Source: Tamilnaduibacter salinus (lineage in GTDB: Bacteria; Pseudomonadota; Gammaproteobacteria; Pseudomonadales; Oleiphilaceae). Taken from it: DNA of 64,000 nucleotides. The notes below the pieces were generated by a model that did not search any database, was not told where the DNA came from, and saw nothing but the letters and a program-made list of their open reading frames with translations. The stretch covers positions 62,001 through 126,000 of the forward strand of contig NZ_QEKQ01000003.1 of the NCBI RefSeq assembly GCF_003096655.1, in the 5' to 3' direction. Position 1 is the first letter of the stretch, and the number at the start of each line of letters is the position of its first letter. Positions 32,711-33,719 of this stretch are shown here, piece by piece. The position numbers and the translations under genes are program-made.

Positions 32711-32856
32711 AGTGGTTTCGGATTGACCTCGTTTCTCTATGAATGCGATCAAATGATAACCAACGAGGGCGCACGCTTCTGTACGAGGAAACCGACCCGG
32801 GCGGGAGACGAAAAAAAAGGCGACCAAATGGCCGCCCAATCAAGGAGAGATTCATC

Positions 32857-33032
32857 ATGCCAACCGATCCGGAGAGCTTCCGAGAAGGATGATGAAGACA
32901 CAACGTGAACATGTGACACTGTCTATGATGGGCCAGTACCCGATCCGGGTCTGTACGGGGTTTCCGCAATCAGTCAGCGCTTTCCGGGAGGCTTGCATGT
33001 TCCGATACAGGGAATACACTGGAAGACAATGA
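32857..33032 (+). other. Two overlapping micro-ORFs with ribosome sites (coding status uncertain)
   Basis: ATG 32857 follows AAGGAGA (32843-32849) and encodes the 11-residue MPTDPESFREG ending at 32892. A second ATG at 32889 overlaps that stop (ATGA), has AGAAGG before it, and runs 47 codons to 33032 (contains VTLSMMGQYPIRV and FRYREYTGRQ). The arrangement looks like a translated leader or a pair of tiny coupled genes. No homologue is recognised and the region could equally be part of a non-coding RNA. Confidence 0.3.
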
Positions 33033-33034
33033 GA

Positions 33035-33184
33035 CAGAGTAACCCCCATAACGCAATGAGTATCGGGATGCCCGTTCAGACCACAATGATCTGACACCGG
33101 AGCCTTCTTCAATGGAAGGTTCCCGGCGGGGACCTTCCGAATCGGCTTGAAAAGCCCGGAAGCGACCCGCTTTCGGGCTTTTTT
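33035..33184 (+). ncRNA. Candidate small RNA ending in an intrinsic terminator
   Basis: Between the micro-ORFs and the next gene, the plus strand folds into a row of stems: TCAGA/TCTGA (33076-33094); GGAAGGTTCCC/GGGGACCTTCC (33114-33138, 11 bp including one G-U pair, loop GGC); and the terminator stem at 33150-33182 with a T6 tail. No ORF ends just before the terminator, so the transcript ended there is either a small RNA or the 3' part of the micro-ORF transcript. The 5' end is not located. No known RNA family was recognised (not 6S, tmRNA, SRP RNA or RNase P). Confidence 0.4.
33150..33184 (+). terminator. Strong Rho-independent terminator
   Basis: AAAAGCCCGGAAGC (33150-33163) pairs with GCTTTCGGGCTTTT (33169-33182) around loop GACCC: 14 consecutive pairs including one G-U, with six T at 33179-33184. 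It ends a plus-strand transcript that carries no long ORF. Confidence 0.88.
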
Positions 33185-33233
33185 AATGGCAATGACATGA
33201 TGAATCGATCGCGCACACCTCAGGTACATCATC

Positions 33234-33348
33234 GCCTTCCACGGGCGAAGGCCCGTTCACTCCCCCGCATGGGCGCGGGTGTGAACGGTATTGTGATGCC
33301 TGTTTGCTGACGGCCGTCCCGACCCGGGCGCCGTCAGGCTCCGGGTCG
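33234..33348 (+). promoter_or_regulatory. Structured leader with mutually exclusive hairpins before a small gene
   Basis: Upstream set: GCCTTC/GAAGGC (33234-33239/33247-33252), ACGGGC/GCCCGT (33241-33246/33251-33256) and CCGTTCAC/GTGAACGG (33253-33260/33281-33288, with inner CCCGC/GCGGG) share strands and cannot all form. Downstream set: CTGACGGC/GCCGTCAG (33307-33314/33330-33337) and CGACCCGG/CCGGGTCG (33320-33327/33341-33348) are interleaved. All arms are perfect. This looks like a switching RNA leader for the gene at 33417. The promoter and any ligand are unknown. Confidence 0.45.
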
Positions 33349-33416
33349 CGCCAGCCACGTGACGCCCCGGGGCCACAGCCATCGGTCCATGTATCGGCAA
33401 CTATGAGGAGAGCGTC

Positions 33417-33677
33417 ATGAGACAGCAGCACCATCGTTCCGCACCACGTTCCGGCCAGGGCGCTCTGCGCCGTCCGTCCAGCCTGCCGTTGCTGGATGCC
33501 ATCTGTAAGCGGCTGAACCAACGCGTCAATTTCGACAATGAACAGAGCGTGTTGGGGCTCTATGAGCGAGGCTGGATCTTCAATGGCGTCATCGCCACGA
33601 TGAGCGAACAGGAGGCCCGCTATGTCCGGGCGCTGGCGAGCCGGCACAATTCCTGGATCGCCCGCCAGGTGGCCTGA
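33417..33677 (+). CDS. Small basic protein of unknown function
   Basis: 86 residues. Ribosome site GAGGAG (33402-33407) lies at good distance from the ATG. The N-terminus is basic and unstructured (MRQQHHRSAPRSGQGALRRPSS); the rest is helical (LLDAICKRLNQRVNFDNEQSVLGLYERGWIFNGVIATMSEQEARYVRALASRHNSWIARQV). No membrane segment and no Cys pair; no family recognised. The long, highly structured upstream region suggests post-transcriptional control. Confidence 0.7.
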   Translation: MRQQHHRSAPRSGQGALRRPSSLPLLDAICKRLNQRVNFDNEQSVLGLYERGWIFNGVIATMSEQEARYVRALASRHNSWIARQVA

Positions 33678-33719
33678 GCGCCACAGTGAGGAACCGCCAG
33701 CGATCGGCCCGGCGGTTCC

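Follow-up and report, generated by a model that had tools for sequence, protein, structure and literature searches.

The window analyzed here, i.e., the whole stretch of 64,000 nucleotides of Tamilnaduibacter salinus DNA, contains a gene of 86 codons at positions 33417-33677 of the forward strand, with the location and length given in the original prediction. All leader features described below are on the same strand. The Shine-Dalgarno (SD) sequence AGGAG of this gene was identified from the sequence at 33405-33409. The encoded protein of 86 residues was assigned to the AbiEi-like proteins by profile matches, the PADLOC model for AbiEi antitoxins (PDLC02281) matching with an E-value of 1.8e-13; Pfam and NCBIfam gave no match. 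An AlphaFold2 model of the protein had a mean pLDDT of 71. Its comparison to the PDB using Foldseek resulted in a best E-value of 4.1, which is meaningless, and PDB sequence searches with two profiles and with one toxin sequence returned nothing.

Matches to the 86-residue protein were found in 131 of 163 Marinobacteraceae genomes, the window genome being the sole representative of its genus in the set searched. In genome_contigs, 44 contigs were matched, of which 43 are titled Marinobacter and one is a Halomonas MAG. The neighborhood is conserved on these 44 contigs, with queE and queC on 42 each, the exonuclease on 37, the response regulator on 35 and the next membrane protein on 34, counts for which it has to be considered that some contigs end early. 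The gene had been described as an orphan, which does not hold for a member of the AbiEi-like family that is conserved and syntenic in the Marinobacteraceae.

A profile search of the order matched 24 of 390 genomes, six of them outside the family (distant relatives), and a search of the class matched two of 369 genomes, one being the window genome itself, i.e., one further relative. At five of the distant loci (L199, L200, L201, L203, and L204), a nucleotidyltransferase reading frame comes after the small gene, with the two overlapping or nearly so; at L205 this frame is partial. The three nucleotidyltransferases tested (L200, L203, and L204) belong to the AbiEii family PF08843. A profile-profile comparison of the lone and the paired forms gave 99.1% over 72 columns. 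At a further locus, L202 (G516), the small gene continues in frame into an apparent C-terminal remnant of the toxin gene, as after a deletion, and repeats follow this fusion.

No toxin gene adjoins the 86-codon gene of the window, its neighbors being the response regulator and others; an operon with an AbiEii toxin occurs only in the distant relatives. The cognate toxin type (PDLC02298) was detected in three of the 163 family genomes (G011, G057, and G091) and is absent from the window genome. General AbiEii genes (PF08843) are common, being present in 75 of 163 family genomes including that of the window. The unlinked PF08843 gene of the window genome is located on contig C4 of G000 at 103409-104077 (E-value 5.8e-31), and its PADLOC type differs from that of the toxins encoded next to relatives of the 86-residue protein. 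Judged by its sequence, the 86-codon gene belongs to a small family of antitoxin-like genes, in which it is a lone member located on the chromosome and has a putative antitoxin role.

Upstream of the gene, a promoter-like site (TTGCAT-16-TACACT) was identified at 32993-33020, 424 nt before the ATG. Of 129 relatives, 123 share this pattern upstream of the gene, its distance from the ATG being 262-311 nt in most cases. A transcription start downstream of 33348 had been named as one of two observations that would speak against the original prediction, and the promoter-like pattern lies upstream instead. The original prediction was restricted to 33234-33348, which is contained in a far larger unit reaching from the promoter-like site to the SD sequence at about 33405 and including two candidate leader ORFs and an additional attenuator upstream. 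A second conserved intergenic stretch, perhaps a small RNA or another leader, precedes the promoter-like site at 32810-32975. It carries an inverted repeat beside an A-run, then AAGGAGAGATTCATCATGCCAACC, which combines an SD sequence with the ATG of a very short ORF. Words resembling ACAACGT..CACGTGACA and CTGTACGGG..TTGCCGCAA come further downstream and are shared by g12 relatives (L002, L003, L007, and L160).

The first candidate leader ORF is located at 33056-33094 (MSIGMPVQTTMI, followed by a stop codon). It has no clear SD sequence, and its assignment from the sequence is tentative; short ORFs at this position were also read by eye in the g12 relatives. It is followed by the switch segments of attenuator I at 33097-33164 (s1 at about 33097-33108, s2 at 33114-33124, s3 at 33128-33138, and s4 at about 33150-33164), for which exclusive folds were obtained with the RNA naked and with s1 masked. 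An intrinsic terminator consisting of s4:s5 and a run of six U is located at 33148-33186, according to both sequence and folds, and reading of the sequences by eye revealed a counterpart in all six g12 genomes. The terminator of this upstream attenuator (module 33056-33186) is strong according to the predicted folds. The stretch 33022-33195 is strongly stable (z-score of -3.55, 0 of 200 shuffles), and 33200-33380, immediately downstream, is only mildly stable (z-score of -2.2, single sequence). Neither the promoter-like site nor the terminator of attenuator I was detected by a simple promoter and terminator scan; their identification rests on comparison and folding.

The second leader ORF spans 33197-33310, with a candidate ATG at 33197 or 33200, the C-terminal sequence NGIVMPVC and the stop codon TGA at 33308-33310. 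It is without a clear SD sequence and without an ATG 29 codons before the stop; its place and frame are those of the conserved leader ORF of the relatives. The stop codon is contained in s1:s2 (33307-33314:33330-33337) of attenuator II, which is followed by s2:s3 (33320-33327:33341-33348) and, excluded by the latter, by an s3:s4 hairpin at 33338-33373. The 160 nt that precede the ATG of the window gene contain no terminator-like site, and the distance from the stop codon to the ATG is 109 nt vs. about 122 nt in the relatives. Attenuator II has kept s1 to s4 and has lost the s5 arm and the U-run that are present in the relatives. Termination in the window would rest on attenuator I, since the second terminator is decayed. 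Possible roles of the remaining s1 to s4 of module II are a Rho-dependent effect or a translational effect, or they may be a remnant. In the predicted folds of 33366-33416, the SD sequence of the gene is somewhat less accessible when s1 is masked, so module II might act on translation in the window species. A second copy of the leader was not found in the window genome, all other matches being short and having E-values above 0.3.

All five perfect arm pairs of 6-8 bp on which the original prediction was based are present and exact in the sequence. The first stem set consists of the short, overlapping 6-bp pairs 33234-33239:33247-33252 and 33241-33246:33251-33256, and an 8-bp hairpin is formed by the exact arms 33253-33260:33281-33288 inside leader ORF 2. 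The most notable arms are the interleaved 8-bp pairs of the second set (33307-33314:33330-33337 and 33320-33327:33341-33348), positions 33337 and 33341 being separated by 3 nt. None of 500 dinucleotide shuffles contained two interleaved perfect pairs with a minimum length of 8 bp. With the minimum lowered to 7 bp, such pairs appeared in 3 of the 500 shuffles and, when the window was divided into 983 overlapping tiles of 130 bp, in 2 tiles. Both sets had been interpreted as the pattern of a switch, thermosensor or attenuator. Only the second set is part of the switch, being identical to s1:s2 and s2:s3 of the conserved chain described below. The first set was rejected as a part of the switch because it sits in the leader ORF, the sequence of which varies among relatives; no counterpart of this set or of the 8-bp hairpin was noticed in their leaders, and the set looks species-specific.

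For the comparative analysis, 130 relative loci were fetched (L001-L030 and L083-L182, L001 being the window's own), and 129 remained after exclusion of L182 as a toxin-paired type. Left unfetched were the second matches of G011 and G057, as well as matches of G117 and G073 that were partial or weak. L160, L167, L168, L170, L176-L179, and L181 were excluded from the leader alignment due to an insertion, a deletion or lack of alignability, and L149 failed the stop-codon pattern. After removal of duplicates, 106 unique leaders were obtained. For covariation, 47 representatives below 90% identity were used, with L015 trimmed before its insertion.

The last 29 codons of the leader are open in 105 of the 106 unique leaders, compared to 60 and 4 in the other two frames. 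An ATG exactly 29 codons before the stop codon was present in 78 of 106. Starts were counted by this codon distance, as their selection by SD score had been inconsistent. Nearest-neighbor comparisons of the 78 leaders with an ATG at this position (77 unique) resulted in a dN/dS-like ratio of 0.58 in the leader frame vs. 1.09 and 0.73 out of frame. The stop codons (85 TAA, 13 TGA, and 8 TAG) abut or fall inside the first arm of the switch. Conservation of the frame and the fixed ATG in the relatives point to a short leader ORF preceding the switch. Position profile and composition of the 78 leaders revealed no run of codons for one amino acid, and by this measure the leader does not belong to an amino-acid-specific attenuator of the trp or his type. 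Since such a run is missing, a general translation signal is likelier than a single amino acid. In the 77 unique leader peptides of 29 residues, tryptophan does not occur and leucine accounts for just 3.4%.

In the 47 non-redundant leaders, five segments form a chain of four helices, s1:s2, s2:s3, s3:s4, and s4:s5, the last being an intrinsic terminator immediately before the gene. Terminator and antiterminator helices are mutually exclusive, as is characteristic of an attenuator. For the set s1:s2 and s3:s4, 91.1% of the alignment cells are paired and five pairs are changed on both sides, with a covariation score reached in 0 of 500 shuffles. Compensatory changes in relatives, proposed as a check of the original prediction, thus do exist. 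For the alternative set, s2:s3 and s4:s5, 98.4% of the cells are paired. These percentages lean towards the proposed helices, since the structures were read off the same sequences. Two results weigh against the proposed chain. A slide by +1 also resulted in changes on both sides (six pairs), although only 59% of the cells were paired, and RNAalifold recovered from the alignment only the terminated set (s2:s3 and s4:s5), with almost no covariation term. An intrinsic-terminator-like site within 160 nt before the ATG was identified in 122 of 129 relatives, compared to 12 of 200 chunks of the window and one of eight paired relatives. The gene starts about 120 nt after the leader stop codon in the relatives.

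The same chain, with the stop codon at s1, recurs in unrelated sequences. It was found at L170/L176, L177, and L181, which represent three other genera, and furthermore in attenuator I of the window, L002, L004, L007, and L015. According to the folds, this recurrence is the strongest support for the switch. A covariance model of the module (R1) matched 130 of 163 genomes with an E-value of 0.1 or better, the match being largely sequence-driven. The strong matches compared by eye, a subset, are located directly upstream of the gene, and weak second matches look like background.

The effect of a ribosome on the chain was analyzed in silico. In naked transcripts ending at s4, the mean pairing was 0.91 for s1:s2, 0.94 for s3:s4, and 0.01 for s2:s3. 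A ribosome footprint at the leader stop codon changed these means to 0.53 for s3:s4 and 0.41 for s2:s3, and with a ribosome stalled 10 codons upstream the pairing was as in the naked transcript. Under masking, s3:s4 fell from above to below 0.5 in 19 of the 47 leaders, remained above in 26 and was already below in two. The window is among the 19 and switches completely, with a value for s3:s4 of 0.98 naked and 0.00 masked. Masking of L170, L176, L177, and of attenuator I of L004 and L007 abolished s1:s2, and s3:s4 persisted in the fold up to s4; only when the full-length RNA was folded did s2:s3 form together with the terminator. For the full RNA at equilibrium, the probability of the terminator was 0.60 naked and 0.64 masked. 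As these values hardly differ, the model requires that the decision is made during transcription.

Directly observed are a leader ORF and exclusive pairings, both conserved, a terminator preceding the gene and the recurrence of these features in unrelated sequences. We infer from them that ribosome position drives the choice of fold, as well as the polarity and the signal. The region is probably, with a likelihood of roughly three in four, an attenuator leader through which the ribosome controls transcription of the gene for a lone small protein of the AbiEi family. The promoter about 400 nt upstream would give rise to a leader RNA that, in the window, holds two successive attenuators, both provided with a candidate leader ORF. 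In the family-wide module, to which the arms of the original prediction belong, the leader stop codon is located at or inside s1 and the five segments pair as a chain. With no ribosome at the leader stop codon, s1 would hold s2, leaving s3 free for s4; s3:s4 would pre-empt the s4:s5 terminator and RNA polymerase would read into the gene. When the leader peptide is finished, the ribosome would cover s1, s2 would capture s3, s4:s5 would form and transcription would end. Expression would consequently rise when translation of the leader is incomplete, as under starvation, tRNA damage or ribosome inhibition. The original prediction, which had suggested an attenuator with exclusive folds, was right in kind but incomplete; its observation of the arms is confirmed, and the helices of the second stem set are supported across relatives.

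The same attenuator could also work with the opposite polarity or for a narrow signal, with arrest of the nascent peptide at its C-terminus under a specific ligand or antibiotic driving the gene. The last five leader codons are indeed the most conserved ones, with V at -4 in 73 and M at -5 in 66 of the 78 leaders, and the Marinobacter leaders end in RAMVKDI followed by the stop codon, i.e., in a conserved M-V-K-D-I-stop end. However, the end differs between lineages (window, g12, and L020 type; GIVMPVC in the window), while the ORF and the position of its stop codon stay, and a ribosome resting at the stop codon is predicted to favor termination and not read-through. This alternative is considered unlikely.

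Alternatively, the leader ORF could be a separate small gene ending in a terminator of its own, with the 86-codon gene transcribed from its own promoter and the stems being incidental, which would be in line with an intrinsic terminator after the ORF. This explanation is very improbable in view of the promoter-like site, which 123 of 129 relatives retain upstream of the ORF, and the exclusive chain that recurs in unrelated sequences. Furthermore, the distance from the U-run to the ATG is only about 30 nt in Marinobacter, which is too little for a promoter, and the gene must be reached by read-through.

Least probable of all is a ligand riboswitch, thermosensor or protein-binding leader working without the ribosome, to which mutually exclusive helices would also fit, as neither the window nor any of 12 relative loci had an Rfam match at gathering (a permissive search of 32800-33700 gave only matches below gathering), no conserved aptamer-like core is present and conservation is centered on the ORF and its stop codon; a thermosensor or ligand, as originally considered, is not needed.

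Assuming ribosome-controlled attenuation, the natural variants form a series of one attenuator, tandem attenuators, a lost terminator and a deleted leader, which could be used for studying the gain and loss of attenuators and in which the pairing chain is kept while the sequence is replaced. Two modules in series are present in seven genomes, that of the window and the six g12 genomes, and L168 has a terminator of the first type only. In L167 (G050) the whole leader is deleted, leaving 64 nt from the beginning of the promoter pattern to the ATG, due to which this strain may express the protein without attenuation. In L160 (G145) an insertion of roughly at least 100 nt splits the terminator, between s4 and the gene.

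A rather unlikely though attractive extension is that the lone antitoxin-family protein, silenced by one or two ribosome-read attenuators and released when translation fails, might be an on-demand guard against tRNA-modifying toxins of the AbiEii/MenT type. Toxins from plasmids, defense islands or neighbors would cause starvation of the leader ribosome, which in turn would induce the antidote directed against them. The attraction is an analogy only and stems from the AbiEii-related MenT toxins, which lengthen the acceptor ends of tRNAs and of which MenT1 is inhibited by MenA1, a protein of 68 residues (PMC10435456). MenA1 is considered here as a functional analogue only. If the proposed polarity is right, the state of translation would be tied to a lone member of a toxin-antitoxin family, which raises the question of what lone antitoxins do. 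In place of an orphan gene with hairpins, a regulatory circuit would be obtained that can be tested and is conserved in a family of marine bacteria.

The leader resembles the trp and his attenuators of enteric bacteria in its leader peptide, exclusive stems and intrinsic terminator. In those attenuators, an untranslated leader leads to termination. The leaders described here differ in that they have no regulatory codon run and that, based on the chain, an untranslated leader should read through.

A closer counterpart is PA5471.1/armZ of Pseudomonas aeruginosa, in which deletion of the leader or an early amber codon raises ArmZ (PMC13041342) and a defect of the tRNA CCA end induces expression (PMC13041342; PMC12057347). 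Both systems have a leader ORF before a terminator; in PA5471.1, complete translation results in termination and deletion or an early amber codon in read-through. The polarity proposed here, an unfinished or untranslated leader giving read-through, agrees with this experimentally described system. Differences are the gene and the sequence, the longer leader (29 codons in 78 of 106) and the tandem modules in seven genomes. The chain of five segments is a feature of the system described here.

Among the open-licence PMC papers listed on attenuation or leaders in Marinobacter, none dealt with this system, and Marinobacter is not mentioned in the main text of PMC2965389. Among those listed on toxin-antitoxin systems with transcription attenuation and leader peptides, only the topAI paper deals with such regulation, judging by the first lines of the abstracts. 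There, toiL of topAI-yjhQ in E. coli is described as a uORF sensing translation stress before a toxin-antitoxin locus (PMC12121999), similar to the leader ORF that is proposed to sense translation ahead of a toxin-antitoxin-related gene in this study. In contrast to toiL, for which a hidden ribosome-binding site and Rho-dependent termination are described, an intrinsic terminator and a lone antitoxin-like gene are found here. The protein belongs by profile to the same family as the AbiEi antitoxins (PDLC02281), whose paired relatives are encoded directly before a PF08843 toxin, whereas no toxin is located beside the gene described here. Compared to these systems, what would be new is a variant of ribosome-controlled attenuation ahead of a lone AbiEi-like gene.
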